Shown here: piece by piece, positions 3,066 through 61,112 of the stretch | Layout: each line of letters opens with the position of its first letter | How positions within the stretch are numbered: position 1 is the stretch's first letter | Virus record (IMG/VR): IMGVR_UViG_3300044533_001042 | Location: 1 to 64,000 of that record | DNA length: 64,000 nt | Strand: one strand, 5' to 3' | From: a virus | Notes under the pieces: model-generated | The model's input: only the letters and a program-made list of their open reading frames with translations | What the model was told of the DNA's origin: nothing | The model's database searches: none | Program-made: the position numbers and the translations under genes

Positions 3066-3455
3066 ATGGTCACTATCGTAACCCGCGCCGCTAAAGGAAC
3101 GCCGCTTACTAGCGCAGAAATGGACGCTAACTTGCAGAACCTGAAGGTGGCTGCAGAGTCCATTCCACAATCCGCGAAGACAGCCGCCTGCACACTAGGG
3201 TTAGAACATCTTGGCGGCCATGTGAGCAGTACTGGCGGAGGGTTTACTATCCCCGCTAATGTATTTAGTATCGGCAATGTTATTTTGTTACACAACAATA
3301 GTGCGACTGCGCAGACTATAACATGTAGTGCGCTAACATGCTATCAAGCAGGAATAGACCCCGCTAAGACCTCTTACACATTAGCAGTGAGAGGGCTGGC
3401 GAGTATTCTTTTTCATGGCGCGAATGCCTGTACAATTTCCGGGAATATCTCATGA
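3066..3455 (+). CDS. Tail-fibre-type small structural protein
   Basis: 129 residues, with a near-consensus Shine-Dalgarno (AAGGAGGTG) just upstream of the ATG at 3066, one of the strongest ribosome sites in this part. The N-terminus reads TIVTRAAKGTPLTSAEMDAN, close to the ITRxKGxPLTxxEMDANFxNL phrase common at the N-terminus of phage tail-fibre and virion-associated proteins. The rest is beta-rich. The stop overlaps the start of the RTX gene (ATGA at 3452), suggesting coupled expression and perhaps interaction of the two products. Confidence 0.55.
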   Translation: MVTIVTRAAKGTPLTSAEMDANLQNLKVAAESIPQSAKTAACTLGLEHLGGHVSSTGGGFTIPANVFSIGNVILLHNNSATAQTITCSALTCYQAGIDPAKTSYTLAVRGLASILFHGANACTISGNIS

Positions 3456-4483
3456 GCGTCTTAACAACGTATATGGCCGCGGGAATAACACCTTCGCCTA
3501 CGATGGGTTGGATTGTGGGTACAGCAGGAAACGATTCCTTAACAGGGACAGCAGGCGCTGATACTTTGTTCGGCGGCCTCGGTATCGACACATTAGTCGG
3601 TGGCCTCGGAAACGACACTTACATTGTAGACACAACAACAGATATCATCACAGAGTCCATCACAGGTGGCACAGATACAGTTCTGAGCACGGCAACGTCG
3701 TATACACTGCCAGGTAAGGTAGAGAATGTGAAATTGCAAGGCGTTGGTGATATCAGCGGTACCGGAAATAGTCTTTCGAATATCGTGACGGGGAACAGCG
3801 GGAATAACACGATAGACGGTAGCACCGGTGGTGATACCTTAATAGGTGGCGCTGGTAATGATGTATATATCGTAGATAACGCTGGAGATATTGTGACAGA
3901 ACTTTCAGGAGAAGGCATCGACACCGTACAGACATTTATATCGTACACTTTGCCATCTGAAGTAGATAATCTCAAGCTAACGGGCATAGCCACAGTATCT
4001 GGTACCGGTAACTCAATGGATAACACAATAGCAGGTAACACTGCAGCCAATACATTGGTAGGCGGTCTAGGTAACGACACCTTATCTGGCGATACAGGCA
4101 CTGACAGTTTAGACGGTGGCTTGGGGAATGATGTTCTATGGGGCGGCTTGCACGTAGACACCTTGACAGGCGGTGATGGAGCAGATAGCTTCCGCTTTGT
4201 AGTCTCCGCCGATTCCGGAACAGGTGTTAGCAGAGATATTATTACTGATTTCACAACCGGAGTTGACAAAATCGACTTGACGGGCTTAGCGCTGACCGGC
4301 GGAGTGATCGGGACAGCAGCCTTTACTACTGTTGGGCAGGTTAGATGGGCGTTTTATGGTACAGGTGCCACAGCTTACGCCGTGGTGCAAATTACTACGA
4401 CCCCTGCTACTCCGACGACAGCATCGATGGAGATTAAGTTAAATCTAGTTACTACATTGGTCACATCAGACTTTTTATTATAG
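3452..4483 (+). CDS. RTX-repeat (hemolysin-type calcium-binding) protein
   Basis: 343 residues with many glycine-rich nonapeptides of the RTX form GGxGxDxLx, for example FGGLGIDTLVGGLGNDTYIV near residues 35-55 and GGLGNDVLWGGLHVDTLTGG near residues 220-245. Between these are two roughly 85-residue repeats containing YxVD, TDTV/IDTV and SGTGNS. The C-terminus (DIITDFTTGVDKIDLTGL) is the usual end of serralysin- or hemolysin-type calcium-binding regions. RTX repeats fold into a calcium-bound beta-roll. There is no protease or toxin domain and no obvious signal peptide, so a virion adhesin or fibre stabilised by calcium is more likely than a secreted toxin. Confidence 0.8.
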   Translation: MSVLTTYMAAGITPSPTMGWIVGTAGNDSLTGTAGADTLFGGLGIDTLVGGLGNDTYIVDTTTDIITESITGGTDTVLSTATSYTLPGKVENVKLQGVGDISGTGNSLSNIVTGNSGNNTIDGSTGGDTLIGGAGNDVYIVDNAGDIVTELSGEGIDTVQTFISYTLPSEVDNLKLTGIATVSGTGNSMDNTIAGNTAANTLVGGLGNDTLSGDTGTDSLDGGLGNDVLWGGLHVDTLTGGDGADSFRFVVSADSGTGVSRDIITDFTTGVDKIDLTGLALTGGVIGTAAFTTVGQVRWAFYGTGATAYAVVQITTTPATPTTASMEIKLNLVTTLVTSDFLL

Positions 4484-7771: not shown

Positions 7772-7915
7772 ATGGCGCGGTCCGTACAGGTAGAGAAGGG
7801 TCTTACAAAGAAAGAAGGTGTCAAGAGAGTAATCTCCAAGGCGCTTAAACAATATGGTGGAGATTATCGTGGGGCAACTTACGATCCACTTACAGGTAAA
7901 GGAAAGGTGATCTAA
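7772..7915 (+). CDS. Small head-operon protein, paralogue B
   Basis: 47 residues, beginning MARSVQVEKGLTKKEGVKRV and ending YDPLTGKGKVI. Similar throughout to the preceding gene (same KGL, EG, YD and TGKG positions). Its TAA overlaps the ATG of the MuF-RNA polymerase gene (TAATG at 7913), so the two are translationally coupled. No family recognised. Confidence 0.6.
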   Translation: MARSVQVEKGLTKKEGVKRVISKALKQYGGDYRGATYDPLTGKGKVI

Positions 7916-10900
7916 TGGCTATAAATGCGAATACAGAGCTGTACGATAGAATCATTGACAGAGCCGCAATGGTGCGCTTATTTGAGCGGAGAGTTGCCGG
8001 AAGAGTCGAGTTGATCCTAGATGGCCATGCCGTTCGTGTTGATAAGTTAGTCAATGACGCCAACTTCTCCACTGCGGGCTTTTTGATATTCAGAGAGGCT
8101 GTGGATAAGGAGATTAAAAAGACATATACAGATGCATTTCGCTCTACTAAGAATGACTTACTGGGCCTCGCAAGTGACCAAGCCTCATTCACGTATGGTG
8201 GAGTCGAAAAGCTCTTCGGAGACATCTGGAAGACAGAAAGACCTAATCGGCGTATTGCGGAAGAGATTGTGCTAGAGAGACCTCTGCACGAAGAAAAGAC
8301 TCTGGCGCAGGGCTGGGCAGGCATTTCTGAAGGTGAAAAGATAAGAATTGAGTCTGCTATTCGGAGAGGTCTTGCAGAGGGCAACACTAACAGCGAGTTA
8401 GCTAAGAGTGTTAGAGCTATCTCTGCGATATCGAAGAACCAAGCAGCTGCATTAGTAACCACGGCAGTCACCTCGGTGACGAATCAGGCCGATCATGAGA
8501 TTTATAAGGCGAATGAAAAAGCTATTAGCGGGTGGCAGTATGTTGCTGTACTTGATTCCCGTACCACTCCAATTTGTGCTCATCGAGATGGTCAGATTTA
8601 CCCTATTGGTGATACAGAGCATCTACCTCCTGCCCATTATAGATGTAGATCAACTACCACCCCCGTCCTTAAGTCTTGGGATGACATGGGAAAGTTGGAG
8701 GCAGTCGCTCAGGTCAGAAAGAGGAATCTCGGAAGTCTCACTAAAGATCAGCAAGCTTATTACGACGGGATGTTGCCTCTGCATGAGTCTTATAATGATT
8801 GGCTTCTCCGCCAACCTAAACAGACACAGCTACGGCATCTGGGGGATTACAAGAAGGTTGAGATGTTCAACACAGGTCAACTTACCGTTGACAAATTCTC
8901 TAATCCTGAGGGAAACACAGTAGGCTTGAATGAACTGAGACAGATCACTGATAGCACTTACACTATCCCTAACGACACCATGCGCTTTGCTAACGCTAAG
9001 GCGAAGTTAGACGCCATGCAACTTCATGCCACAATGCCTGAAGATTTCTTCTCGGATCCTGCATTGACACAGACACTGAAAGACTATTATCTCTTACAAG
9101 CAGGCGAGCTTGACGGCACTCTCTCACTAACTAACTTCCGTGGAGCGCTTATTGGTAACAAGAAAGCGATGAAGCGGCGAGTGCTAACAAGCCTCCCCCG
9201 CGAAGATCAGATGATATTCAATCCAGTAACAGGGCGTTATGAGGACACCCGTCTGTATCAGCCAAATCTAGGCGTGCTTAATAACAATCTGAAATTGATT
9301 CGGAATAGTCCAGATTTGAAGCAGGTAGATAAAGACTTCATAGTTACCTTCGTAGAAGGCTTGAATGAAAAGATGGGAGCCAATGAAAGAGCTGTTATTG
9401 CTGATAACTTGAGGATTGTATTCACACGTTATCGTAAGAATGGCGAGCGTTGGGGAAACTTCAAAGCTGTATCACAATCACAAATCAAGTTTGACGTGAT
9501 GAACGTTTCGGATTCGATTGAGACTCAGATAAGAAGCGGCTCTGACCCTTTAAAGAAGTTACTTCAAGATAACTACATTGACCCTGTTCTGGGACCAACT
9601 CAGCTTCAAGATCTTCATGACAACTTCATTGGCAATATTAAGGCCAAGAATTTGTGGGAAGACAGAACTGCCCCTAAGATTGCGAGAGAGCTAAGGGATG
9701 CTTTTGACAGACATATTCCACTAATAATCAACCATCGCCTCGATGAAGCAAGTAAGCAGATGTTCTACTTACGCTTCGCCAACCGATTGTCATTAGCGGA
9801 TACCCCTGACAGAGACCAGCTAGCTATCGCATTGGGCAGAGATCTGTACAACCAAGCTAACTTAAACGGTACAAAGGATAAGTGGTATGAGACAGGTCTG
9901 GCATTACTGGAAGGCAATACCGATCTGTTTGAGGTAGAGACTTTTGGCGTCCAGAAACGACGCATGAAGTCGCGAATGTCAGGGAATCTATTTGGCCCGT
10001 ATTACGATACGCTCGCATACAACATTAGGGTCACAGACCCTAGAGTGCAAGAGTACTCCCACCTCACCAGAAAGGTAGAGCTGGGTTTGCGGGTTGCTGT
10101 AACGAAACCTGAGAATCGTCTTAAGTTCAGAGAGGGCTACAAGACGTACTTTACTGAAGATAATTATGATACTCGTATCCCGATTACCTCTACAAGCTCG
10201 TTTAGTGACTTCCCTGAGTCTTTTGTTGACAAGAACACTGTGGACGCCTTAAATTGGGCATCCCAGACTGAATATAGGGTGGACCCTGATTTCTATGATG
10301 CCGTTCAAAAGGTTCTTTACTTTGTGGATGACAGAGGTAAGGCTAAATTCTACGATGGACTTAATGAGTACAAACACTACATTGCAGGACGTGGAGATGC
10401 GTATGAACGCTTTAAATCAATGGAGTGGCTGCGTAAATCGGGTGATTCATTCTCTAATAACCCGTTTATTGATCATCGGGCTCGCATTTATGACCGTGGG
10501 TTGATTAGCCCTCAGTCTGGTGAATCTTTCCGGCCATTCCTTAACACGAAGGAAGAGAAGATTCTCGGATATGACGGTTACTTGAATTTCAGAGATCAGA
10601 CTGGCGCCTTCTTAGGAGGCCTGACTGATGCCTTTGAAGGCAAAGACAACTCATTGACATTTACTGGGCGGCAGAAGATTGCCGATAGATTGTGGCCTGA
10701 GATGGTCGATGTCGGCAATAAGCTGATGAGAGGTAAACCGGCAGACATCAGAGGTGTTCTTGAGTCAAGCATGGTGCAACAGGTCGAAGGCGAAGAGCTT
10801 GGTAAGTTCTTTAGATTCGCTATGGAAGCTGCTAAGATTGACAATTATCTCAAAGACGGGACTTCTGCTGCTGTTAGCGAGGTGGTATCTACCCCAGGCC

Positions 10901-12888
10901 TATTATCTGAACGGCAAGATGCAGCAGGGTTAGTGCGTTTGCTTGGTGTGAATAATAAGACTGATCCTGATTACATTAGCAGTCCCGCAGAGGTAATACA
11001 GGCGCAATCAGACTTATTAAGGCTTGCATCAGAAGGTAAATTGACATCTAAGGATGTTGGCGAAGCCTTTAAATGGCTGCATACCGCTGACATTTCGCTT
11101 ACCAAAGAGCGGATGGAGAGGGCTACTTATAAGACGTTCGACCAAGCCACAGGAGAGAAATTCTCTGCAGCCAAGGTGGCGGAGAATAAGGCTAAATTCG
11201 AACAGCGCTCTAAAGGTGACACACCTCGTTACATTGCCATGCAAGTGGTGGAGGAGCTCGGTGAGTTTATGGAGGAGCATCTGAAGTCTGCTTCGGTTCC
11301 AAGGAGTGCCAGAGTCTTTAAGCTAATAGAGGCTCAGAAAAGAGCTTTAAAGGCTGAGAGATTTGGCGCGGCTACTGTAATTAAAGATGCTGATAGTCCT
11401 TACTTTATGAAGACCAATCAGGAGGCTGCATTAATTGCTGCAAATGATGCCGGCCTTAAGGTAGTTCCAGGGGACGCGATTGGACTAATTGAGAGGTTGA
11501 ACAAGGAAATCGGTGCTGAGAGTGTCAAGGCATTAGCTGCACCACGTGCAACTGATGTTGTGGCGAAGATGAATAGTTACAAAACAGCTCTTGCTTTAGA
11601 GCAAGATGCTTCATCCTCAGGTGCTCAGATTATCGCGCTGGCAACTAAGAACAAACAGTTAGCTGAACTTAGCAATGTAGTTCCTACCACCCAGAAGCGC
11701 CGCCTATACGATGAGATAGCTGCGGCTACTTACAATGACCCACGTTTCAAGGTCATGAATGAGCGTCTCGGCCTATCTGAGAAAGACTTAAGGAAGGCGG
11801 CGAAGGCTCAGAACATGGTTACCTTTTACGGTGCTGGAGAACGTACAGGTATTCTCAATGTTGAAGGCAAATTAGCCAAGATACTAGAGAAGCAGGGCAA
11901 CACCTTAGTAGTGAAGGCGTCAGAGCGTGATACCATCCTGGACGAGATCTCTGCCAGAGCAGCCCGCTATAAGTCTTACGACCCTGACACCTTTGACGAG
12001 CTGATGACCTTGAGAGCTAATGTCAGAGATATCTTCAACAAAGGTCTAGATCCCGGTGACGAGATTATGGAGCAACTTTACTTCTTAGACCCTGGCAACC
12101 GTGCTTTAGTCGAGAAGATGTCTGCAACGTACGATTTGGTTGTCACACCAAAGGACTTTAAGGATATTGCGAACATCATGAGTGATCACCTTGGTGAACA
12201 AGTGCCGATCCTTAAAGATTTCACTAAGTTCTTCGGAAGGCTGGCAGAAGACTATCTTCGCCATGCCAAGCCTAAGAACGCTGACTTCGATTGGAAGGCT
12301 ATTGGTGAAATCACGCTCTTTGGTGAACGCAAGAAAGGCAAGACAGTTGATAGAGTTGTGGGTGATTTGTTAGGTCTAGATAATAAGGTGAAAGTCCTGT
12401 TCGGATCTCGCTTCAGTGAGATGTTAGGTGTTGACCCTAAAACTCCATTGACTGAACAGGTGCTGAAGCGATTTAGTTGGTTTAAACCAGACTCTACACT
12501 GGCTGACATCCTTCTAGGAGGAAAGCAGGCAAGTACAGATCGCCGAACAGGTGCCAAGTACGCTAAAATAGAACTGTTTCAGATCTTAGATGTTACGAAG
12601 GGCTTTCAGCTATTCTACTCAAATAAGCTCCCAAAGAGCTGGACAAATGTCCCTTGGGTGAACTTTGATGGGAAGGTTCTAGAGCAGAACTTCACCCAAG
12701 CCTTCGAAGAGAAACTGCTCTATAAAGACAAGGATGGCAATACAGTAATGAATGTCATTCAGGTTCCTCAAAAGACAGAAGCAACTTGGTGGGAACAGAT
12801 CATCAACAAAGAAGGCAAGATTAACGACATTGCAGATGTTACAAAGGCCAGGACAGCTTACGCGGTTAATGGCAACCACTCAAACGAT
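7915..12888 (+). CDS. MuF head protein fused to single-subunit RNA polymerase, exon 1
   Basis: First 1658 residues of a predicted 1784-residue spliced protein. Residues ~160-250 are a MuF/SPP1 gp7 minor-head domain: W207, LDSRTTPIC (Asp214 to Cys221) and PPAHYRCRS (Cys244). The C-terminal part carries T7-family RNA polymerase motifs with T7 spacing. Asp853-x-Arg855-x-Arg857-x-Tyr859 matches T7 421-427. Motif A is DASSSGAQ with Asp1231 = T7 Asp537. Motif B is Arg1293, Lys1297 and Tyr1305-Gly = T7 Arg627, Lys631, Tyr639. The exon ends within motif C after NHSND (T7 VHSQD). Inserts of about 265 and 200 residues relative to T7 lie before motif A and between motifs B and C. MuF proteins are normally packaged in capsids, so an injected polymerase is inferred. 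Start overlaps the previous stop (TAATG). Confidence 0.85.
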
Positions 12889-13843
12889 AAACAAAGCTGT
12901 CGTTTTAAAACCTTGTGAATTCAGTGGAAGCCCAGAACGGGTAATACTGAGCCCTGTGTAGCAGGATGCTACTATATAGCGGGGTGCAACGACTATCGAA
13001 ATCGTAATAAGAGAGTAGAGTAGGTGTCAAGTGATGCCGAAGCGCAAGGACAAGGATGTATGATATAGTCTAGACTCCATCGGAATATGGAGATGTGTGT
13101 CAGAACACATTGGAGAAGCTACAAATGAATGAAATTTGGAAACAATACAAAGATACACAATACTCTGTCAGCGATCAAGGCAGACTTAGGAATGACAACA
13201 CAGGGACCTTGCTGGCAGGGAACATTACCTCTCAAGGTTACGTCAAATTTGGCATGTGGCACAATGGTGTAGTCAAGACAGTCCAAGTGCACCGGTTGGT
13301 GGCAGAGACGTTTATCGACAATCCTATGGGAAAGCCTGTTGTTAACCATAAAGATAGTAACCCAGCCAATAACGCTGTTGCTAATTTAGAGTGGTCCACT
13401 ACTGCAGAAAATATTCAACACTCGTATGCAGAAGGAAATGGCAAAGTGGGTGAGGAGAGCGTACACGCGCTGCTGGCTGAGAAGGATGTCATCCTAATTC
13501 TTGAGCGTTGCGCTAGAGGCGAATCTACCGCAGATATTGCAAAAGCATTTGGGTGCAGCACAGGGGCTATAAGCCACATTCGTCTTAACAAGACTTGGAA
13601 GCATATCTCCAGAGACGCCTTCCCTAATCTTTCGCAGAAAGGGAAATTAACACCAGAATCGGTAGCTGAGATAAGGCTACTGCTAGCAGATTCAGTGCCA
13701 AAGAAAGTAATTGCTGCAACGTATGGCGTCCATAGAGGCACCATCGCAGGAATTGAGTCCGGAAAGATCTGGAAAAACCATTAATTATTAACCTCAAAAT
13801 CTGACACACACAGCAAGATTAACGAACTGGCTGTAATATAACG
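12889..13843 (+). ncRNA. Group I intron 1, in motif C of MuF-RNA polymerase
   Basis: 955 bases. The 5' exon end AAACGAT (12882-12888) pairs perfectly with intron GTCGTTT (12898-12904), leaving the U-G wobble expected at the 5' splice site (P1). P7 is GACTA (12991-12995) with TAGTC (13066-13070), inside the conserved GATATAGTC element. P9 is the 6-bp hairpin CTCCAT/ATGGAG with loop CGGAAT (13075-13092). The intron ends with G at 13843 (omega G); joining to GCAACACTC restores the frame and completes RNA polymerase motif C. Without splicing, exon 1 reads into the intron and stops at 12918. An HNH gene lies after P9. The core is clearly related to the intron at 59707. Confidence 0.88.
13125..13784 (+). 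CDS. Intron-encoded HNH homing endonuclease (NUMOD4-HNH)
   Basis: 219 residues from the ATG at 13125 (GGAG nine bases upstream); an upstream in-frame start at 13095 would lie in the intron structure. Residues 1-20 have the NUMOD4 pattern (EIWKQYKDTQYSVSDQGRLR). Residues 55-100 are the HNH nuclease: VHRLVAETFIDNP, then VVNHKDSNPANN and NLEW. The C-terminus has two helix-turn-helix-like repeats (ADIAKAFGCSTGAISHIRLN and KKVIAATYGVHRGTIAGIES), probably for DNA targeting. Such enzymes cut intronless alleles to spread the intron. Both ends are inside intron 1. Confidence 0.88.
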   Translation: MNEIWKQYKDTQYSVSDQGRLRNDNTGTLLAGNITSQGYVKFGMWHNGVVKTVQVHRLVAETFIDNPMGKPVVNHKDSNPANNAVANLEWSTTAENIQHSYAEGNGKVGEESVHALLAEKDVILILERCARGESTADIAKAFGCSTGAISHIRLNKTWKHISRDAFPNLSQKGKLTPESVAEIRLLLADSVPKKVIAATYGVHRGTIAGIESGKIWKNH

Positions 13844-14224
13844 GCAACACTCGTAAAAGGCTTTCACCTATGGGGCAAGAAGAACAACATCCCTACCAGC
13901 ACCATCCATGATGCTTTCTTTGCCAACAGTGCTGATATGATAAAGGCCAGAGCAGGTCTCCGTGAGCTTTATGCTGAAGCAGTCTCCAAGCAGTCAATCA
14001 AGGCAACATTAGATGAGATGCACGCACGTGGTCTCCCAGATGAGCTTTACCAAAAATACTTAGATGAGGCAATCGATACTGGGATCATTCCGGTGGCTGG
14101 TCGCTCTCGGATTAACGGTGTGTTACTCAAGGAATCAGATATCCTTACCGAAGAACACATTCTCTCTCCAATACCTGAGCCGTCAAAATATGACAATGAC
14201 TTAGGCTTTTACGGAATAGGCTGA
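13844..14224 (+). CDS. MuF head protein-RNA polymerase fusion, exon 2 (motif C)
   Basis: 126 residues that complete the fused polymerase. In spliced numbering it begins at Ala1659. It contains IHDAFF, giving the second catalytic aspartate (Asp1681 = T7 Asp812) next to His1680, then a helix (ADMIKARAGLRELYAEAV) like the T7 helix after motif C. The frame has no proper start of its own: it is open back to 13823 and continuous only through splicing. An internal ATG at 13937 would lack the catalytic residue. The C-terminal 60 residues (to YDNDLGFYGIG) are not recognised. The next gene begins two bases after the stop. Confidence 0.85.
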   Translation, partial: ATLVKGFHLWGKKNNIPTSTIHDAFFANSADMIKARAGLRELYAEAVSKQSIKATLDEMHARGLPDELYQKYLDEAIDTGIIPVAGRSRINGVLLKESDILTEEHILSPIPEPSKYDNDLGFYGIG

Positions 14225-21028: not shown

Positions 21029-24000
21029 ATGTCAGGTATTGAGATCGAAGTCAGCGCCAAAGTCGACAAGGTCCAAAGAGATATGGAGACTCTCAATCAT
21101 ACTGTGTCAGACATTACAAAGAATGTCGGAGGTATGGTAAATGGCTTCAAGAACTTAGTAGTAGGAGGCGCTGCGGTTGGCTCCTTGTTGATGATGGCAA
21201 AAGTAGCCAAGGATATCACTGTTGAATTTGGCCAACTGGAGAATAAAATAGCCGCAGTAACAGACCGAACAGCTGCTATGGGCGAAGCACTAAGTGGCGT
21301 TAGTGACATTGCTAAGTCTACACAGACCACCCTTTCCGATACGGCTGCTACTTTCGCAGCCCTAGGCAGTAGTGCTGCCTCTTTAAAGCCTTCTACCGAA
21401 GCTTTATTGACTGCAACAAAAGCGATACAAGCTGCTAGTACCATCGCAGGTGGGAACTTAGAGGGCTTTAAAGCGGCTGTATTTCAGCTATCACAAGGAT
21501 TGGGCGCGGGCGTTCTTAGAGGTGAAGAATTCAACTCAGTGATGGAGCAGGCTCTCCCATTAGCGGGAGCCATCGCTGATTCGTTGCATGTCTCTACAGG
21601 TGAGTTGCGTCAGATGGCGGCAGCTGGCAAATTAACTTCTGAGCAAGTGTTCGGTGCACTTATTGGGCAAGCTGGTGCCTTAGAGGCCAAGTTAGCCAAT
21701 ATAACACCTACACTTGATGCGCAGATGGGGCGTGTTAAAGAAAGTTTCAAGACTACATTTGATGAATTCTTAAAGGGCACAGGGTACACCACTCAGTTTA
21801 GTCAGGCATTAGGAACAATTACCAATAAGGTCGGTGATGTGACTAAATCAGCTTTTGAGATGGGAATGGCACTAAGAGACGGAGTAGATGCTTTCAGAGA
21901 AAAGTGGGGAATGGCGATAAAGCCAGCCTTATGGTTCTTTGATATTATTGCTAGACGCGCTAAGGCTGTATTAGACGCATTTGGTATTACAGCCTTCTTT
22001 GTAAGATCATTCGCAAGTGCAGAGTTGGCTGTGTCTCATTTCTTCAATGTGTTTGTTGTGAGAATGGGGAGTGTCGGTACAGTATTGTCCTCGTTAGAGA
22101 ACTTTAAGACTACAGGATTAACAGGTGTTTTCGGGTCTCTAGAGAAATCTATGGGGATGTCCTTAAAGGCCACAATGAGTTCTGCAGGTCTGTTTCTCAA
22201 TTTCTTTGAGACCAGCTTCTTGGCTGGGATACGCGCCCAAATGAGTGCAGTCGGGCACCTACTCTACAGCAGTTTGGAGAGTATTGGTCTTTCTAAGGCA
22301 TTGAAGCTAGACGCCTTTGTATTCTTTGGCGCTAAATTAAATACAGTACTGTCTACAATTGTCTCATTCACGAAATCGTCATTCTCAAAGCTCGCGAGGG
22401 CCATGTCCCGTACTGAGTTCTTTTACTTGTTTGATACATTTGGGTTAATCGGTAAAGGAATCAAGGCGCTAATTCCAGAGGATGCATTGTCTGGATTATT
22501 AAACTTCTTGGATGATCTCGCAGATAAGCTAGACATCAACAAGGTATTCCTAAATGCAGCGGCAGGGGCTAGACACTTTCTGAGAGAAGCAGCAGATTTT
22601 ATTGACTTGATTCCTGGTCTGACTCTGTTCACTTCTACACTCAGAAAGGCTGCGAAGGTTGCAGGAAACTTTACGGGTCTGAAAGGCCTGGGCGGTAACC
22701 TTAAGAACCTAGTTACAGGACTTAGATTCTCTTTAGACACTACGTCATTCGGCGCTGTGAAGATTGTGGTGATGCGCCTCATCAGAGATTTAGTGAAAAG
22801 TGTTAGCGCTTTAGCGAAGAAGGGGTTTGCAGCTATTAACCTCGGCAAGCTAAGCTTCAAATTGAAAGACTTGTTTCCGACACCATCGTTCGACCTCTCT
22901 GCCTTACAAAGTTACTTCTCTAAAGGGTTTAAAGCCTTCAAAGACTGGGCAACTGCCCTAATATCTCGGTTCAGCTTACCAGACGTAGATATCTTAGGTA
23001 AGTTAAAGACTGTAATGGATGCTGTCCACAACTTTGTAAAAGACAGGCTAGCAGCTCTCACCTCTACATTGCCTACATTGTCTTTTGGTGATTTCTTCAC
23101 CAAGACAGTAGAGGCTATCGAAGAAAGCCTGCCTTCCCTTGATGATGTTGTAGGCTACATTAAAGGGTTCTATGAGAAAGTTGTTCATTACTTCTTCTTA
23201 ATCTATGACGAAGTTATTGCCCACTCTTGGTGGACAGACCTCGTAATTGATGTGGTGGATGGCGCGAAGGAGATGGTGTCCACAGTGGCGAAGTACATCT
23301 CTGCATTTGCCGATTATGTCATAGCAGCGTTCAAGACAGTATACGATGCCGGATCTAAGTTGTTCGGAAAAATAGCTGATAGCTTCAACATCGATACATT
23401 ACAGGCTAAGCTCTCAGGAGTAGCAGCTAGCATGGCTGCAGCCTTTACTTCGTTCAAATCAGGCAAGCTAGTTGTAGCAATCTCAACAGGCGACTTCAAA
23501 GGAGTTGGCAGTGCTTTGAAGGAAATTGGTCATAACATGGCTAACAGTTCGGGGGTGATATTCGCGAAAGCAGTACTATTACATCTTACTGGTAAATTCC
23601 TTCCCTCATTGCTTCCGAAAGGCGATATCCTTGGCTTGTTAGAAGGCGCTGTGAAGCGAGCCGGTCAACGCGCTTGGATGCAGTTAGCAAGCTCTCTGAA
23701 AGATACCGACCTGGCTAAGAATTTAGCTAATATGTCTGGTTCTGCAGTGGGTGCGTTCCTCGGTGATACTTTCGCCAGCTTCGTAGATAATCTCCCAGGC
23801 ACTATATCTTTGATCTTTGGCGTAATTGCCAGTGGCATGAGAGCTATGCTAGAGAACCTAGGCGGCGTCATCGGTCCAGCGTTCCAAGGGCTATTTAAAG
23901 TAGCAGATACTCTAGAATTAGGGAATGCACTTGGCTTAGTGGGCGGTATTCTCTTTGGCAACAACGTCTTGAATGTTCTTAAATGGATGGGCATCTTTGA

Positions 24001-27000
24001 GACTCGTATTCAAGGGTTACAAGACAAGCTAGAACCATTGATGAAGTTCTTTACAGGACGCTTCCGCTCTGGGATGACAGGCTCATTATTACAGACACTC
24101 TCTAGAGAGATGTTCGGTGGCGCTCGTAAGTTTGTGTTTCTTGGTGCAGCTGCTCTGGCGTTGGACTTTGTGGGTGGATTTGACTCTGTCTTCCAAGACC
24201 AACCTATTGGACACGCTGTGTTTGATGCGTTAGCGATGGCGATGATGGCTTTTGGTAAAGATTTGCCGACCCTTATGAGTCGTTATGTTACCACTCCATT
24301 CAGAGGCATCTTAGGTTCAGGGCTACGTTCGGCAGGCCTTACCAGTCTAGGAAATTGGATTCTGCCCACCGCAGGACCAAGAGCCAGCATGATCTCGGTT
24401 GCAAGTGCAATGATTTCTGGGGTACATGACTTGTTCACCACAAGAGCGGCTGCTCTTATGCGACCAGGCACACGTACCTTCATGGAAGCTTTGCTGCTAG
24501 GAAGAAGTGTTGGTTCAATCCCACCGGCCTTAAGGGCTGCTATCCCTGCTTGGCAGATGGCTTTGATTGCTGCAGAACGAGCTGGTCGACATTCAATCAG
24601 AACTAGTCTTGGATCGATAGTAGCTACAACGCCTGTCATCGGCCCTATGGTCGCTGGGCTGCAATCGCTAGCTAACACAATGAGGACTTCTACGACTGCA
24701 GGAGGTGCGTTTGCCAGAGCGATGTCGTCATTAGTAAGACCGCTTACTGTGGTAGCAATGCTCGCAGGATTGTTTGCTTCAATGGGGGCATTTGCTGCAG
24801 AAGATCAAACGGTCAAAGTAGACGTTAAGCCTACTGAGTCGCCCTACAAGAAGATGATGGAAGATATCAGAGGCCCTCTCAAAAGTGGGCTAGACGCTAT
24901 CAAAGAAGTCACATCTGTCATCTGGGATAACTTTGTAATGATAGATACTGCCTTAATCGGTGGTGTGGCATTGCTGAAGATATTTGGATTTCTTGCCAGG
25001 GTGTCAGAGGCCGCTATCCTTAGTGGTGCCTCAGGGACAGCTCTTATCGGTTTAGCGCTTCGCCCTGCTACAAGTGGATTCGCTAAGTTAGCAGCTGGTG
25101 TGCAATTCTTCTCTATGCAAACAAGGGTTGCAGCTGTATTGATAGGCTCTTTATTTACCGTCCTAGCGAAGCTGAGCAGTGAAGATGCGCTAGCACCTTT
25201 GATGAACAACATTGGGGAGAGCGTAGGTGATGCGCTTAACATTGACAATAGCGGCTATCTAGACAAATTACACAGTATCTCTTCAGCTACTGGCGACTTC
25301 TTCAAAAGCATGTTTAGTTTCTTAGACCAAAGCAAGAAATTAGCTACATGGGGGCTTATCGGTGCTCTAGTCGGCGGCTTCGGGTTCTGGGGTGTTAGAA
25401 TGAAGCAATTAGCCGCCGAAGCAAGGATCGCTCGTAGAGAGCTGAATCCGATGCAAGCGAGTAATAACTTCGTAGGCCCAAGAGTACCTGGATCTGTCGG
25501 TACGCCTACATTCATCGGACCTATGAATGCTGGCTTCAATAGAAATGCGCCTTACAGAGGTGCTGCTCCTGTTGTCGCCACTAAGTCTTCTGCAGGTGTA
25601 AGAATGGCAGGTGGCGCACTATTAGCTGCAGATCTACTCGGCGCATTTGACAGCGCGATTGATCCTGATTCAATAGGCCATATATTCATAAGAGCTGCTG
25701 CAGGTGCGCTGGTCTTGTTTGGAAGAACATTGACTGACGGGTTACTCGGTATGCTCGGAAAGGCAGCTTCACCTTGGGGATTAGCGATCGGCGGTATTAT
25801 CGCCGCTGCGATCTTTACTGGGTTGAAGATGTCAAAGACAGAGGACCAAGGGGGTGTGCCTAAAGGATTCTTCTCTGAGTTGATGTCATTAGAAACACTC
25901 TCAGTGGCAGCTTTCGGCGTGTTTGCTGTTGGCGCCAGAAAGGCTGTTCTCTACTGGGGTGAAATCAGAGCAGCTGCGGAAGTAGCGAGAGTGGCGCAGA
26001 CCGCATCTTTAGCTGCCTTCAATGTACAACAAGCGTTCGTGGGCCCTTTAGCGCCCGGCATGCCCGGATACGTAGGTGCACCTACTATGTTTGGGGGAAG
26101 AGCCTATCATGCAGCTGGTGCCCCTCCTGTTGCCCCTGTTGTAGGCAGCTTTACAGCTCGTGCTGCGGCTGCAATGGCAGCTAGTCCGCTAACGTATATG
26201 CCTGCCACGATGATGGGCAAAGCTATGCCGATGATGACAAAGATTGGTGCAACAGCTGGTATGGCATTTGCAGCCGGCTTCGCAACTACTGAGTTGTTCG
26301 GATTGAAAGATTATGGCACAGAGGCTACGTTAATTGGCGGCCTTATTGGATGGAATCTTATCGGCGGTTTGATTACAAAGATAACACCTATTCTGAGCAC
26401 TGGTCTCGCGGGAATGTTTGGTCTATTGGTGGTAAGTGGCGGGCTATTGTGGGCGTATTTCAGCGGAAACGGTACCTTGTCAGAGAGAATGGACCAGGCC
26501 ATGCACAAGATGAAAGAAATCATCGGCATGGGAACGAAGCTGAGAAAGAATACAGGTGATGGGCTAGATGCACCAATGACAGCTTTCGCTAAAGATAATA
26601 ACTTTAGCCTGAACTATGACATGACCCGTATCAATATGGACATCTTATCGCCTAAGCAACGTAATAAGTTGGAAGGTGCTTTTGATAAGTTCTATGAGTC
26701 AATGTCTGAGCTGAAGAAGAAAGTTGATGAAGGAGAGGAGATTACTCCTGCCGACAGAGATGCGACTCAGCGTAAGTTAGGCAACTTAGAACGCCAATAT
26801 GCGCGTGCCCTCAGCGAAACCCGCTTCGACTTCAAAGGCAAGATGCCTGATATCAAGTCATTTGAGAAATTCGAAGGATTCTCCAACGCAGATTATGCAA
26901 AGGCGATTCTAGAGAATCCAGGTACATTTGCCTCAGCAAAACTAGGCAGAGGCGCTCAGTCTCAGAAGGACTGGAAAGAAGCAAGAAAGGGCATCGAGCT

Positions 27001-30000
27001 ATTTGATGGCGTCAAGAAGGGTGTTGAGCTATTTGAGAGAGTCGCTAAATCAAGCGCCACTAACAGCGTCACTCCTAACTTAACTACCGCAATAAACGGT
27101 GTCAGCGCTACTACCTTCGCTGCGATGAAAGAGCTTCGCGACAATATGGCAGAGGGCAGTACAGGCTCGTTGTGGGGACAGAGAAGTAATGCACAGTTAG
27201 AGGCTACTTCCAAAGAAGGGTTGGCGATAATGGCTGCGTTACAGGCCAGGATTGATGCAGAAGTTGCGGTAAGTCAACAATCGATTTTGTTTGGGAAAGA
27301 GCTGACTGAACTCGGTAACAGGATGTCTAAGGTTGATCTGAAGATTGACTGGGATGTTACATCAGCCACTGAGGACTTAAGAAATCAACTAAGCCAAGCC
27401 ACCTTCGCACTCGATTATTGGACCAAGAAGCTAAAGGACAGAAATTCCGGTGACACGCCTGCGAAGGCAGTTACAGAGGATATGTTCAAGGCTGCAGGGC
27501 TGGTGCTCCCTAAGAAGGATGACCCTAAATATGTCACGATGAATCGGCCAGCATGGAATGAACAGCAACGTCAAGAGTATGCAGATGTGACAGCATATTC
27601 TGAGTACGCAGTGCCAGAGATGGCAACTGGTGTCGAGTACGATGATGCACAATTCCGCGCTGACACTGCTGACATAATGAAGAAACGCGCAGCGTTGTCA
27701 AAAGAGCTTGCAGCCCCTGATATGGCAGCTAGTGCTAGAGTGCATGATGAGAGTGCTCGTGCTAAAATGTACGCCAAGCAAGAAGCTGATCGTGCTATTG
27801 AGTGGGGTGCGTTAGCAGGTAGTAAGTTGTCTTCTACGTTAGCGAATCTTAGTGGTAAAGTAGGGATCGAGTTGCCTGCAGGCCACATTGCTCTAGGCGA
27901 TAAGGAATCTGCAGCAGTCAAAGACATCTTGAAGGGTGTCTCTGATACGCTCGCAAGACTCGATGCACCAGAGATCTCTAAACAAGAAGCCATGCCAGAC
28001 ATGCCTCGCCAGGAAGACTTCACTAAGGAAGGTAAGTCTCAGTGGACACGGAGCGGCTTTACTAAGACAAGTGTGCCTGACTTTGAAGGGTACGAGAAGG
28101 CAATGACTGCTTTCACTGAGATGCAGAAACAAATGGCACTATCTGTTGCTGATAAAGAGAAGGCAGCTAGTGACCCAGAGTATGCCAGCAAGCTCAGAAG
28201 CAAAGCCGCCAACGACATCTTCGATAAAGTGAACGGAAATGCTGCGGCCAGAGCACTCAACAACCAATCGGTCTTTGAGTCAAACTCAATAGACCCTTCG
28301 AGAGTCAATGCTCGTTATGGTGCCAATGCTGCGCAGGATGCATCAGCTAAGATTCAGAGAGAGATGTTGATTCAGCAATTCTCTAAAGGTGTGGATAAGT
28401 CGGCATTCGAGGCTTCGGCAAAACGTGTCAAGGCTATCATGGAGTCTATCAAGATTCCAGACTATCAGCCATTGTTAGCTGCTGTCAACTCGATTGACTC
28501 TACAATTACTGGTGAGTCTCTGCAGTTCTTGAGCAAAGAACAGCTAGCTGCGCTGGATAAAGCGGCCACTGATATAGAGATTATTGAGTCTAAATTGAAG
28601 AATTCTGAGTTGTTGCCTGAGCAGTCTGCAGCATTGTTGGCTGAGAAGTTCAAGATAATCGAAGAGAGCTCTAAAATCACTGAAAGCATTTACCACAGAA
28701 TCGGTAGTAAAATAACCGAAGCGATGGGAAAGGCTGGCTTTGATGATGCTAAAGTTGCCGCTAATCAGGGGATGAGTCCTCAGATGTATGCAGCAGGCGC
28801 GGCACTTACAGCTGCAGAGAAGGACAGAGGCAAATCAACTAGCGTCTCTGAATGGGTGACTCGCTCTCTAGAAGTTCATCGCTTAACACTTGAAGTGCAG
28901 ATGCTTAATGCGAGCCTGGCACTTACCGGTGATGAGATGGCGCAGGCCTTCTCCGATATCGGCGTAACTACAGCTGCTGCGATGTCTAAGCTTGATGGAA
29001 AGTTACCATTCGCTTTATTCAGAGCAGGACGCAGAGCTAAGGTTGACTTAGCCGCAGCGAGTGATGAAGCCTCGTTCAAGAGAGCGATGAAGGAAGGCGC
29101 AGTTGTAGAGAGAGCGAAATTATTGCTGACTAAGCAATATCAATCCCTTAAGGCTGGTTTTGAGTCTGCTAAATCGGCGCTCTCATTGTCTTTTGACGAG
29201 AGCTCTTTTGGCAGAGTATCGTCTTCATTGATGAACACTCTCATTAACGTAGCGAATGGATTCGAGATAGCGTTAAGTGATGCGATGTCTAACCCTGACC
29301 TCTGGAAAAGCTTGACAGCTCAGATGGAGATCTTAAAGGACGATGCAGCAATCTTGTCAGGTCTGGACACTATCGCAAAGGATGTGGCCAATTCTAAACG
29401 TGAAAGTGGAAAGGCCAACTACGACAGAGTTACTGCAGCAAAACCTAACTTGAATCTGTCACGAGCAGAGTATAGTTTTGTGCCAGCTGCTGACAAGGCA
29501 GCCTTCACAGCTGAAGCAGACTTGCAGAGGGTGTATGATGCGCTAGATAGCATGACGCTGACACCTGTCCTCGCTGATACTGCTGATTCAATGTTCAAGA
29601 ATGGCAGTACTGCAAAAGAAATCTCAGATACACTATCTAAGATAGGCGGAGATGATTTCACAGCTAAGTGGGGTGATGCATACAAGGCATCGCTATCGCC
29701 TCTTCAGTTGAACAGCACAGCCACGGAAGAGAACACGAAGGCGATCCTTAGCTGGACTTCAATGTTACAAGCAAAGCCTGCGACGGCTGTTCCTGCTGTA
29801 GACACAGCTCCTGCTAAGCTAGAGAAGACAGACTACGCAATTCACAAGTCTACACCTTTTGCGCAGGATATGCTCACGCGGGCAAAACCCTACGCTGACA
29901 AGTTGGGGCTACCTGCAGATGCGTTAGTGGCACAATCAGCTTGGGAAACAGGCTGGGGAAAGGCCATTCGCACCAAAGAGGGCGGTGGTAGTACTAATAA

Positions 30001-33000
30001 TCTGTTTAACATCAAGGCTACAAAGAACTGGAAGGGTGGCAGATCTGCGCGACCAGCTACCGATGGCGGCTACTTCAGAGCTTACGAAAGCTTAGAGGAT
30101 TCTTTAGCGGATTATGTGGCGCTTATTCAAAAGGCTCCTCGTTACGCTAAGGCAGTTATTGCTGCCAAAGCCGGTGATGTGAATCAGTACTTCAAAGAGT
30201 TGCAGGCTGCAGGCTATGCCGGTGCTTCAACACACTACGCTTCTGATCTTAGTAAGCTCAATGTGCGTGGAAAGGCTGCTGCACGTAACAAGTACGCCGT
30301 TCCTGACGAGACTGCTAAAGCTGCTGTGTCAATCAAAGAAGCTGCGAAGAAACCTGCTGAATTGATAAATGCTTCCTTCCAAGAAGTAAGCAACCAAGTA
30401 GCTGCGTCCTCTGAGCAATTAGTGGATACAGTTATAAACATCAAAGAGCGTGCGGCAGACGAGACTCAACATCTCGCAGGTAGAGTTACTCGCGAGAAGC
30501 CGTATGATCGCTCAGTTGCACAGTACGAGGCAGACTTTGAAGCTTACAAAAGTGATTTTCATGCAAAGCGCAGAGTAGCTACCGGGAACGAAGGTTTAGG
30601 CATTGAGCCTATTGCTTACAACTTAGCAGACATCGCACAATCAGCGGAGCTTACAACATTCGCAGAGCAGATTAAGCTTGCTAAAGAGGCATTAGACAGT
30701 GCCACCAACGCTGAAGATGCGGCTAAGGCTCAAGAAGCTTTATTACAGTATCAGTCTGGTCTTGAAAGCCTTACAACTTCAATTATGGAGAATGCTAAGT
30801 CTATTGAGAATGCCGGTAAGTCCTTCAAGGATGGAATGAAAGGCTTCGCTGAGTCTACCTTCAAAGATTTACTAGAAGGCAATACTAAAGGTATTGGCAA
30901 GAAAATGCTAGATGGCTTCACCGGTCATGTAACAGATACATTGTCCAAAGGTCTCGCAGCTTCTTTCGGCTTCGGAAGAGGCGGCATGATGGATAAGATG
31001 ATGGAGCGAACTGGTAGCATGTTGTTCGCCGGACCAGGAAGTTTGCTGGGAAGTATCCCTGGTGTTGGTGATTTACTATCAGGCCTTGGAGGTGGAAGTC
31101 TCGTAGGTAAAACTCCGGAAGATACCTTCAGCTCTGCAGTAGATAAATTTGCTGCATCTGTAGGATTGATGGGTGCTGGAGGTGTCGGGGCAGCAGCAGC
31201 AGCAGCAGCTTCTAGCGGCGGTATCATGGACACTATAGGATCCGTTGCACCTTGGCTGTTAGGCGGGGCAGGTGTCATAGGCGCTGGATATCTTCTCAAG
31301 AACGGTATTAGTCAAGATGTACTGAAAGGGGCAGGCTACGGGAAAGCAGACATAGGTAATATAAACACCTTGTTTGGCTCTTCTGGAGAAGACTTTGACC
31401 CATTCAACGCCTCTCTCTTCGATAGTAAATCTGACAAAACTTCTTCATTCTTATCTGATCTTTTCACTGAGAAGAGTAGAGGTGAGCTTACTAGTAGTAT
31501 CAAGTCTGCAGGTGGCAATCCATGGCTAGATGACGGTATGAAGTCTGTAATAGCTGGTAAATCAGACGGCATGTTCGACTGGCTCATCGGTGATGACGGC
31601 TTCTTAGGTAAGAACGGTTCTATTGCAAATATCTTCTCCTCTAAAACAAAAGAGGGCGAAGGAGGAATGCTAGACTGGCTTATCGGAGACAATGGCATCT
31701 GGGGCTTCCTTAAGAAGATGATCATGGGTGAGAACATGGACGGCACAGGCGGCTTAGTCGGTGGTATCGCTAGTATTTGGTCATCCCTGGGTTTTGCTGA
31801 AGGCGGCCATGTATCCGGACCAGGCACTTCTAAGTCTGATAGTATTCCTGCAATGTTATCTGATGGCGAGTTTGTGGTAAATGCCAAAGCTACGCGCAAA
31901 CATGCTGGTCTATTACAGGCTATCAACTCCGGCAGCGAGCTTGTACATCGCGCTGAAGGAGGCTTCATCGGTACTGCAATGAGTCTTGCATCTCCTATAA
32001 TGTCGCTGGTAGGTTCTATCAACGCTAGCTCTGCTAATGCTGAGTTAGAGAAGGCTGCTAAAGAGTTACAGAAGGCAGCTCTCATGCTGATGGGTGGCGG
32101 TAAAGGTGGTGTTGCTGATGGTATTTCGTCCGCTATGTCGAAGGCTCTGCCAACCACTAAGGGCGACAAAGGAATGTTCAGCGGTATCACTGATTGGCTA
32201 GGTATTACTTCGCCAGATACATCCGTAGACATGAGCCCTGTCGCTGCTGCAGAAGGCAGCTTGACTGATACCTTGGATAAGTTCACAGGAAAGACTACAA
32301 CATCAGCAATGATGTCACCAGTGGATGCCAAGGGATTGACCAGCAAGCTAGATGAGATGACAAAACCTGACTCTGGATTCTTCAGTGGTATTGGTGATTC
32401 AATCTCAAGTTGGTTTGATGGCGGAGGAGGAGATGCTGCCAGTGGTCTGACCAGAGTGCCTATTGAAAAGACTGCTGATTTCATGAACGCCTCTCCTGAC
32501 ATCCAGTCAGCACTTTCAAGTGCATTGCCGGATGGAATCACTGCACAGAATAGTTCTTTGAGCTCTGTACTGGGCGGCGGAAAGGGTGGCGGCGGATTGT
32601 CTTCTCTGTTCGGAGGCGGTAGTAGCGCAGATAGCTTCGTAGGACCTATGCAGCCAGACCAAGGAATGTTCTCTGGATTGTCAACGATGATGGATGACAT
32701 GACGACCATGATGGACGATATGCTAGGTGGTCTGATGGACAGTCTTAGTGGATTGATGGACGGTCTTATGGACGGTCTGTCAGGCGCTATGAGCGGTATT
32801 ATGGACGGTCTATCAGGTGCACTAGGGGGTATAGGTGACTTACTAGGTGGCGCTGGTGGTGGCATCATGGACGGCTTGTCAGGACTTGGCGGAATGTTCA
32901 TGGGTATGTTTGCCGATGGAGGCCATGTATCTGGACCAGGCACTTCTACTTCTGACAGCATTCCCGCGCTGCTATCTAATGGCGAATTTGTAGTGAATGC

Positions 33001-51235: not shown

Positions 51236-51424
51236 ATGAATAAAGAATTCAAGATAAGCGAAGTAAAGGCGGCGGCAGAGTTCCTGAGAAGCCTCAATGA
51301 AGTTAAGCTAGATGAGCTGGTGCTAATAGACGATAATGGCGAAGCAGTTGACTTCTCGGCGAAGATAGCTAGGTGGAGATTCATAGGACTGAATAATCGA
51401 GACTTTGTACTCGCGCATTTTTAG
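51236..51424 (+). CDS. Small hypothetical protein
   Basis: 62 residues from ATG at 51236 with AAGG upstream; the frame extends upstream into the GC-rich segment but the protein sense begins here. MNKEFKISEVKAAAEFLRSL, acidic middle, then IGLNNRDFVLAHF. Helical, no known family. A promoter-like motif overlaps the end of this gene. Confidence 0.5.
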   Translation: MNKEFKISEVKAAAEFLRSLNEVKLDELVLIDDNGEAVDFSAKIARWRFIGLNNRDFVLAHF

Positions 51425-51437
51425 GTATCTTATATGA
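51413..51437 (+). promoter_or_regulatory. Promoter-like motif, copy 1
   Basis: GCGCA (51413-51417), 8 bases, then TATCTTATATGA (51426-51437). One of four copies in 51-55 kb; three have identical spacing. It lies 43 bases before the next start codon. Proposed as a phage RNA polymerase promoter because of size and placement; not proven. Confidence 0.5.
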
Positions 51438-52312: not shown

Positions 52313-52337
52313 GCGCAGAAAGCAGTATCTTATATGA
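52313..52337 (+). promoter_or_regulatory. Promoter-like motif, copy 2
   Basis: GCGCA (52313-52317), 8 bases, TATCTTATATGA (52326-52337) followed by AAG. It lies in the 70-base gap before the gene at 52381 and is directly followed by an ATGG-loop hairpin. Confidence 0.5.
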
Positions 52338-52933: not shown

Positions 52934-52958
52934 GCGCAAAAGGGGATATCTTATATGA
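52934..52958 (+). promoter_or_regulatory. Promoter-like motif, copy 3
   Basis: GCGCA (52934-52938), 8 bases, TATCTTATATGA (52947-52958), then AAGAGATAAAG. It is also part of an inverted repeat: GGGATATC (52943-52950) and GATATCCC (52969-52976). Confidence 0.52.
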
Positions 52959-54792: not shown

Positions 54793-54802
54793 GCAGCAAA
54801 TA

Positions 54803-54826
54803 CGCGGAAAGCAGTATCTTATATGA
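54803..54826 (+). promoter_or_regulatory. Promoter-like motif, copy 4
   Basis: CGCGG in place of GCGCA, 7 bases, then TATCTTATATGA (54815-54826) and AAGAGATAAAG as in copy 3. An open frame starting with its ATG at 54823 runs into the next gene but is probably leader. Confidence 0.5.
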
Positions 54827-58311: not shown

Positions 58312-59706
58312 ATGCTTAGTGAACTTTGTCCTACTGTTACGGAGGTGTTGTTTCTGTACACAAGGGCTAAATATAATGAGCCAATAGTGTTGTCAGAGGT
58401 GCTGACAGCGCTCGGCTCGAAACTCTCCAGAGATCCCAGTTCCAGAGTAAGAGCACAAGCAGCAGCAGATCTTGTCTACGACCTTGAAGCTGCCAGGATT
58501 CTCAAGATACAGGTAGAACGTATAGGGAAGAAGAGTGCCTACACAGTGGCTGTTCTGAATGATGAGGCTATTGTGGAGGCTTGGCGGAAGTGTTCCAAAC
58601 AGAGTACTACAGTCTACCCTTCACTTATTCCTTACTCTCCTTGGACTTCTAGGACACACGATCAGCTGACTTACCCACTTATCAAGACGCGAGCAGTATT
58701 ACCGGCTGTTCCTGCAATGGTATTGGACGCTGTTAACCGTGCCCAAGCAGTAGGATGGAAAGTAAACGAGAGAGTGCTGGCAATTGCTATATGGGCGCAT
58801 AAGTACCGTGAGGAAGCCTTCTCAGATATTTGGAAACAAGTCTCAAAGGAGGCAAGAATCACCAAAGGTAGAGAAGTCAACACAGTCCTGACAATGGCGC
58901 AAGATCTGGCAGGTGCTATCTTCTACCATGGTTACTACACAGACTTCAGAGGACGTATCTATGTCGCATCTGCTTACCTCCATGAACAAGGCGCTGATGT
59001 TGCCAAAGGCCTTCTACTACGAGCTGATGCAAAACCGCTAGGAGCTATTGGCTTTAAATGGCTGAAGATATCAATTGCCAGTAACTGGGCGGGCACTTCT
59101 GCCAGAGAAGACAAAGCAAAGACTGACAAGATCCCTTTGGAGGAAAGAGTGCAGTGGGTAGATGATAATCATGAGCTAATCATGGCGTATGCTACATCAC
59201 CCAAGCTCTTTAAAGGGTGGATGGGCGCTGACAAGTGCTGGCAGTTCTTAGCAGCCTGTATGGAGTATGAAGCAGCATGGCGAAGTGGCAATCCAGAGAC
59301 TTTTGTGAGCCATCTTGAGTGCTTCATAGACGGAAGCACCAATGGAAGTCAACATCTAGCTATGCTGACGAGAGATGAAACATCTGCGCCCTATGTGAAT
59401 CTTGTCAAATCAGTACTTCCTGGTGACTTGTATGCGTATGTTGCAAATTCTCTCTGGAACTTTATCGCGCTGACAATCGCAGAATTAGACCCTAAATTAG
59501 TGGCGGCTGCTGATAATTACGTCACAGTCGTTACAGAAATGAAGGCTGAAGTGCGAGCTGCAGAGCGTGGGAGTGATCTCAGAGTTGTCTTAGGGGAACG
59601 ACTAAAGAACTACAGAGAGGCAAATCATTTCCTAGAAGATTCTGCTTGTTTCATATTCTGGAATCGTATCAAGGACAAGAAAGAACGTAGAAAGATAGTC
59701 AAGCGT
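58312..59706 (+). CDS. T7-like RNA polymerase, exon 1
   Basis: 465 residues of a 685-residue spliced enzyme; GGAG upstream of the ATG. It contains TDFRGRIYVASAYLHEQGAD (Asp211, Arg213, Arg215 = T7 421/423/425) and motif A FIDGSTNGSQHLAML (Asp340 = T7 Asp537). The exon ends within motif B: RRKIVKR with Arg460 and Lys464 = T7 Arg627 and Lys631. The N-terminal domain before the DFRGR motif is only ~210 residues versus ~420 in T7, so promoter contact or RNA exit elements are reduced. Expected to transcribe phage genes. Confidence 0.93.
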
Positions 59707-60449: not shown

Positions 60450-61112
60450 GGAGTAATGACTATCCCATACGGTGCAGTTTCTTATGGGATGTCTGAGCAG
60501 GTCATAGAAGATGCCAAGAAGCACGGCATCGATTCGCTCTTAGACCTGGACAGGAAATGGGGAGCATTCATGGGAAGACTAATCTACGCTAGCTGCAAAG
60601 ATAGCATGAATAAACCCATGAAGCTTCTTGAGATATTCAGTAATGCAGGGATTGCTGCTGAGAAAAGAGGTGAATTCCTCAGCTGGACTGTCCCTGTAAC
60701 GGGCTTCAAAGTGGTTCAGCATTATGAAGAAGGCACTATTAAGCCTGTTATCCTGTCTTATGGACACAAGGATATCAAGATTAGCCTACTTCACAAGGAA
60801 GAACGAGTCCCTGCTAAGCGCAAGCAAGGCCAAGGAGCAGCGCCTAATATCATTCATAGCATGGATGCAGCACACTTAATGATGATTAAGGTGGGCTGTG
60901 AGTTCCCTGTGACAACCATCCACGACTCTTACGGATGTTTGTGTGCGGATATGGATGTATTGTTCAGAGTCGCTAGAGAGAAGTTTGTTGAGCTGTACTC
61001 TAGCGATCCACTAGTAGCGCTGATGAATGATATCTCAGGTAACTGGGAAGGTCTTGAAATCGGCTCACTTGACATCAATGCAGTATTAGAGAGCGAATAT
61101 GCTTTCACTTAA
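60450..61112 (+). CDS. T7-like RNA polymerase, exon 2
   Basis: 220 residues. Begins in motif B (GVMTIPYGAVSYGMSEQ, Tyr472 = T7 Tyr639) and continues to motif C: APNIIHSMDAAHLMMIKVG and TTIHDSYGC with catalytic Asp624 (T7 Asp812). The C-terminus (DINAVLESEYAFT) ends in the conserved FA-like foot that shapes the T7 active site. The frame is open before 60450 but the upstream part belongs to the intron. With exon 1 it makes a complete catalytic core. Confidence 0.93.
   Translation, partial: GVMTIPYGAVSYGMSEQVIEDAKKHGIDSLLDLDRKWGAFMGRLIYASCKDSMNKPMKLLEIFSNAGIAAEKRGEFLSWTVPVTGFKVVQHYEEGTIKPVILSYGHKDIKISLLHKEERVPAKRKQGQGAAPNIIHSMDAAHLMMIKVGCEFPVTTIHDSYGCLCADMDVLFRVAREKFVELYSSDPLVALMNDISGNWEGLEIGSLDINAVLESEYAFT

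Follow-up and report, generated by a model that had tools for sequence, protein, structure and literature searches.

A MuF head protein joined to a T7-type RNA polymerase, a probable virion RNA polymerase of long-tailed phages

An experimental precedent for a virion RNA polymerase (RNAP) joined to a structural protein exists in Thermus phage P23-45, whose RNAP gp96 is fused to the tape measure protein (PMC10770324). Here we describe a gene, henceforth referred to as MuF-RNAP, in positions 1 to 64,000 (a 64,000-nt stretch, henceforth referred to as the window) of the 107,780-bp viral record IMGVR_UViG_3300044533_001042, in which a MuF head domain and a T7-type single-subunit RNAP lie together on one chain of 1784 amino acids (aa). 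The putative system resembles that of P23-45 in that a long-tailed phage carries its virion RNAP on a structural protein and has two promoter classes and a second, non-virion RNAP (found among the pre-early genes in P23-45), and in that a duplication origin is proposed for the two polymerases. However, P23-45 gp96 is a two-barrel RNAP homologous to the cellular enzymes and rides on the tape measure, whereas here a single-subunit RNAP rides on MuF. With the virion RNAP gp50 of phage N4 (Schitoviridae; PMC12633501, PMC5512222) it shares the single-subunit RNAP superfamily and, as proposed here, an early-to-middle cascade that involves another phage RNAP, but gp50 is ~3,500 aa long with N- and C-terminal parts of its own, belongs to a podovirus and has no MuF domain. 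Similarly, SPP1 gp7 and the MuF polymorphic toxins (PMC5576092) have the MuF domain, the head-operon position and a C-terminal enzymatic cargo proposed as delivered, but the toxins occur in temperate phages, mostly of Firmicutes, and the cargo here is a complete RNA polymerase.

The P23-45 and N4 types of virion RNAP were considered for this gene and rejected: the P23-45 type given the T7 fold and a tape measure protein encoded by a separate open reading frame (ORF; 21029-33307), and the N4 type given an hhalign probability of 1.6% to the N4 gp50 polymerase domain and the difference in length. Since it falls outside both lineages, MuF-RNAP, which is real and conserved, is a new form of the virion-RNAP strategy. 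Its true homologues of the same architecture include roseophage DSS3_VP1 QGH74596 (‘minor head protein-like protein’) and EBPR siphovirus 1 gp47/gp49, whose records call them head or hypothetical proteins and do not name the polymerase part. An earlier note on this stretch, made from the letters alone, had proposed that the phage injects this polymerase and that the fusion was not known as characterised. With regard to the fusion itself this still stands, as no description was found in the literature searched, which left out most subscription papers including the description of DSS3_VP1; for the general idea, on the other hand, namely that a long-tailed phage can carry its virion RNAP on a structural protein, P23-45 is the precedent.

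Architecture and conservation of MuF-RNAP

The gene consists of the following parts:
7915-12888, + strand: MuF-RNAP 5' exon, residues 1-1658 (junction placed from intron-free homologues and EBPR siphovirus 1)
7915-8964, + strand: MuF head-protein part, residues 1-350
10225-12888, + strand: single-subunit RNAP domain, 5' part, residues ~771-1658
13844-14224, + strand: MuF-RNAP 3' exon, residues 1659-1784, with motif C IHD (Asp1681; 13904-13912), placed by read-through in homologues

The unspliced ORF (7915-12918) stops within an intervening sequence, and joining the two exons gives a stop-free chain of 1784 aa. A Pfam profile search placed the MuF domain (PF04233) at residues 145-248 (E=4.2e-18; 66.6 bits vs the curated cut-off of 29.6), and a PHROGs profile search matched the head morphogenesis family phrog_241 over residues 1-347 (E=1.1e-71). 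The polymerase profiles matched weakly but significantly (phrog_414, E=2.6e-12; PF00940, E=3e-4). A MuF start and a polymerase end were found in a single uninterrupted ORF in 45 homologues (44 loci from IMG/VR and one from the isolate DSS3_VP1), and the gene order portal, MuF-RNAP, scaffold, capsid was found in nine genomes, which places MuF-RNAP within the head operon. The C-terminus, where MuF polymorphic toxins have a toxin domain, is here the polymerase.

The catalytic motifs, identified by homologue alignment and comparison with T7 RNAP, lie as follows:
10471-10491, + strand: DxRxRxY motif (D853-Y859), equivalent to T7 D421-Y427
11602-11622, + strand: motif A, QDASSSG, catalytic Asp1231
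11791-11832, + strand: motif B, RKAAKAQNMVTFYG (R1293, K1297, Y1305)

Ten residues (D853, R855, R857, Y859, D1231, K1297, Y1305, G1306, H1680 and D1681) were invariant in all 46 sequences (the 45 homologues and the window), one of which is only ~32% identical, and R1293 was kept in 45 of them. To assess the fold, the post-MuF part of the intron-free homologue L025 (1191 aa; 51-sequence alignment) was modelled with AlphaFold at a mean predicted local distance difference test (pLDDT) score of 84.2 and a predicted template modelling score (pTM) of 0.78. The top PDB matches of this model by Foldseek were human mitochondrial RNAP (E=2e-18) and T7 RNAP (3e2e; E=6.3e-18, probability 1.00), with a TM-score to 3e2e of 0.54 by target length. 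By motifs and predicted fold, the polymerase part is a T7-type single-subunit RNAP and is presumably catalytically active. The opposite view, that it is a catalytically dead relic with a present role as DNA anchor or internal protein of the virion, could draw on the borderline Pfam score (20-22.6 bits), but we regard it as very improbable given the invariant catalytic residues, the presence of a matching class of promoter-like elements (see below) and strong purifying selection, the nonsynonymous divergence (dN) being ~0.1 with synonymous divergence (dS) saturated over the first 980 codons of the window's gene and that of L016.

These results bear out most of what the earlier note had read from the sequence, namely a MuF domain at residues ~160-250, a spliced chain of 1784 residues, a fusion to a polymerase and the positions of the catalytic residues, and both the profile search and the structure prediction that it had proposed as checks agreed with it. 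Its statement that the motifs have T7 spacing held inside the motifs (R-x3-K-x7-Y and DxRxRxY) but not between them, where the distances are 378/66/376 residues in the window and 116/94/173 in T7. The closest profile to MuF-RNAP was that of a second single-subunit RNAP of the same phages, henceforth RNAP2 (hhalign 82.7%, E=9.5e-6), followed by T7 RNAP (70%, 4e-5). An origin of MuF-RNAP by duplication from RNAP2 is only a suggestion, since these hhalign figures are single comparisons and not a tree.

Promoter-like elements and the second polymerase

A core element, TATCTTATATGA, occurs in five copies on the + strand of the record and in none on the - strand. With an upstream block common to relatives it forms the element M1, GCGGAAAAnnnnGGTATCTTATATGA. 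With regard to hairpin promoters, a feature of the N4 type, inspection of the M1 consensus by eye showed no conserved inverted repeat. The window contains four M1 elements, each identified by core search, relatives and weight matrix, and the RNAP2 gene downstream of them in the early region:
51413-51437, + strand: M1 promoter-like element 1
52313-52337, + strand: M1 promoter-like element 2
52934-52958, + strand: M1 promoter-like element 3
54802-54826, + strand: M1 promoter-like element 4
58312-61112, + strand: RNAP2 (phrog_414, E=9e-64 and 2e-48; PF00940 over cut-off)

Allowing at most one mismatch, M1 was found at 25 forward sites and 1 reverse site, in eight of the nine genomes (the ninth, G010, has an M1 variant only), and the sites scored 26-40 bits by weight matrix against a background of at most 13.4 bits. 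Of these 25 sites, 20 fall in the interval from the tail-fibre gene to the RNAP2 gene, where 4.5 would be expected (P=2e-11 on the assumption of independent sites); five are found in the arm that separates the RNAP2/replication genes from the terminase, and the structural block has none. A second strand-specific element, M2, ACCCCGTTAAATTAACCCT, is found in relatives upstream of the terminase gene, before the DNA polymerase gene and directly 3' of the MuF-RNAP stop, before scaffold and capsid. In EBPR siphovirus 1, three M2-like sites were found, two of them at terminase and scaffold; M1 was not found in this record, which is labelled partial and in which RNAP2 was undetected.

The two elements appear to follow the two polymerases. 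The window's MuF-RNAP is 63-73% identical to its relatives, about as much as these are among themselves, and M1 is intact, whereas its RNAP2 is an outlier (39-47% vs 53-72% among relatives, the exon junction being approximate) and M2 is undetectable. DSS3_VP1, whose MuF-RNAP is only ~33% identical to that of the window, is diverged at both polymerases; it has two copies of an M1-like element, GAAAACTAAGGCATCTATAATGA, in the interval from tape measure to RNAP2, and a different element, ATAGGGTGCGTTAAAGAGGGG, is repeated in other places. When IMG/VR was scanned with GAAAANNNNGGYATCTWWWWTGA, 73 stretches matched; ~30 of these belong to relatives of DSS3_VP1 and have the element close to the genes for tape measure and RNAP2. 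We infer from these patterns that M1 and M2 are promoters, M1 being read by MuF-RNAP and M2 by RNAP2. The reversed pairing, in which MuF-RNAP reads M2 and RNAP2 reads M1, would also account for the co-occurrence of M1 and M2 in the same genomes, but we give it hardly any credence: RNAP2 would then need to start its own synthesis, because M1 precedes its gene, and the window's genome keeps MuF-RNAP together with M1 while RNAP2 and M2 change together. In the DSS3_VP1 record (2242-59196; L002, L089), ATAGG(G/T)T(G/A)CGTTAAA occurs eleven times, in many cases with a G-rich stretch after it, and is a candidate RNAP2 promoter of this isolate.

Overall, we consider it likely, judging from the sequences, that MuF-RNAP is a virion RNA polymerase carried by the MuF head protein, packaged, injected and responsible for a cascade from M1 through RNAP2 to M2. 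Because a MuF head protein is joined to a complete T7-type RNAP, every particle probably takes a polymerase of its own into the bacterium, where it would turn on the earliest phage genes. Late in infection, the head operon (terminase, portal, MuF-RNAP, scaffold, capsid) would be transcribed by RNAP2, and the MuF part would bind the portal region inside the procapsid so that a few copies are packaged. Upon infection, the MuF-RNAP chain would exit with the DNA via the siphoviral tail and initiate at the M1 elements of the early region, which lead into the RNAP2 gene; RNAP2 would then read M2 and so transcribe the replication and late genes. Packaging, injection, catalytic activity, the function of the elements and their pairing with the polymerases are all predicted steps. 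Since a class of early promoter-like elements with a downstream RNAP2 gene is what an injected polymerase would need, the reading of the earlier note is supported, as it also is by the conserved fusion and its position in the head operon.

Several points weigh against this reading: a polymerase of such size must traverse a siphoviral tail, the genomes that supplied the 25 M1 sites are related, which makes the above P value optimistic, M2 reaches only background by weight matrix in the window's genome, and the DSS3_VP1-type M1 contains TATAAT, a perfect bacterial -10 hexamer, so that it could be read by host RNAP. It may thus be asked whether host RNA polymerase reads M1 in general, with MuF-RNAP used only inside the producing cell and MuF acting as a portal tether. 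We consider this unlikely, as M1 is a rigid two-block element of ~25 bp without a -35 hexamer and no sigma-70-like site coincides with any of the window's four M1 sites. Moreover, since the phage already makes RNAP2 for its later genes, there is no obvious use for another polymerase inside the cell that is attached to a head protein. If MuF-RNAP is a virion polymerase, the few known cases of injected phage RNA polymerases would be joined by another pairing of polymerase and carrier, a MuF protein would have a concrete job in a large uncharacterised group, and DSS3_VP1, an isolate with a culturable host, would gain a testable early promoter.

Inserted domains and introns

The loop before motif A, which is a short linker in most homologues, carries a long inserted domain in the window and in at least 13 of the ~150 loci examined, a set that partly repeats contigs. 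In the window it is the following:
10855-11577, + strand: inserted all-helical domain of 241 aa, residues 981-1221, missing from most relatives

This domain (AlphaFold2 pLDDT 84.6) is common to the window and L009-L011 and is found after motif B instead of before motif A in L218; searches of Pfam, PHROGs, the PDB (by sequence and by fold) and annotated phages gave no match to it. Other loci have other, unrelated insertions before motif A: a nucleotidyltransferase and a GNAT domain in L016, GNAT in L018 and L024, a phrog_5043/10766-type domain in L043, L058, L079, L082 and L085, and a phrog_30942-type domain in L030-L032. By analogy with polyvalent proteins (PMC5512222), the inserted domains look like exchangeable cargo on a delivered protein and, if they are delivered too, the polymerase would double as a carrier of host-takeover enzymes. 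Whether MuF-RNAP is a separate invention of the injected RNA polymerase, in which a MuF head protein of long-tailed phages captured a T7/N4-RNAPII-type polymerase, probably a duplicate of RNAP2, that reads an early promoter class of its own and delivers exchangeable host-takeover domains on surface loops, is to us an even call.

The two exons of MuF-RNAP are separated by an intron that has a gene of its own:
12889-13843, + strand: group I intron, 955 nt (Rfam RF00028, E=5.9e-10; intron-free homologues read through)
13095-13784, + strand: intron-encoded HNH homing endonuclease (NUMOD4, HNH_3 and helix-turn-helix domains, by profile searches)

The RF00028 score of this intron is 45 bits, just below the gathering score of 50, a threshold that the introns located close to this position in L035 and L051 passed. 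The junction (...NGNHSND / ATLVKGFHLWG...) is contiguous in EBPR siphovirus 1 (NMNHSNDAVIVKRFHLWG) and in intron-free homologues, and exact joining of the exons gives an uninterrupted homologous protein, as is characteristic of a group I intron. RNAP2 is split by its own group I intron (RF00028 at 59642-59924, 68.1 bits), with exon junctions at ~59719 and ~60450 as judged from relatives, so that both polymerase genes of this phage are interrupted in this way. In homologues of MuF-RNAP, introns were also seen at different points of the gene (L001, L016, L024, L035 and L051), at motif B in EBPR siphovirus 1 and L016 and a few codons 5' of the window's intron site in L024, L035 and L051.

Genome context and relatives

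The record has a 253-bp direct terminal repeat with one mismatch, and all genes annotated in it are encoded by the + strand. Both in homology and, broadly, in gene order it follows DSS3_VP1 (Naomviridae), the genes concerned being portal, MuF-RNAP, capsid, tape measure, RNAP2, DNA polymerase, primase, ribonucleotide reductase, nicotinamide phosphoribosyltransferase and terminase. Two overlapping scans of IMG/VR returned 371 and 550 related stretches; the MuF-RNAP design is thus common to hundreds of uncharacterised public relatives, two of which are laboratory isolates. Among 50,697 annotated phage records, only four (EBPR siphovirus 1, two of DSS3_VP1 and DSS3_PM1) have relatives of the catalytic part, and none of these annotates the gene as a polymerase. 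No lysogeny genes were seen in the annotated parts of the record, a search of the window's genome for a dCMP deaminase, which would point to deoxyuridine DNA, found none, and bacterial genomes gave as host clue only phage-like contigs binned in a metagenome-assembled genome.

Several other genes of the record may be mentioned. The tape measure protein is 4092 aa long and has an internal glucosaminidase domain. A 343-aa protein with RTX calcium-binding nonapeptide repeats (3452-4483; PF00353, E=3.5e-24) is encoded immediately 5' of the endolysin gene. Beyond the window, a Toprim primase/helicase gene (L006:5756-8764; record 69756-72764) contains an intein-like Hint and LAGLIDADG region, and L006:15199-16473 encodes an SPFH/Band 7 protein. 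A NUDIX-cytidylyltransferase fusion (L006:18772-19731) and the nicotinamide phosphoribosyltransferase (L007:624-1943) suggest NAD metabolism. Finally, the intergenic region 5' of the terminase gene (record 101540-102080; L007) contains many TTTAAAG/ATTATGG-like repeats.

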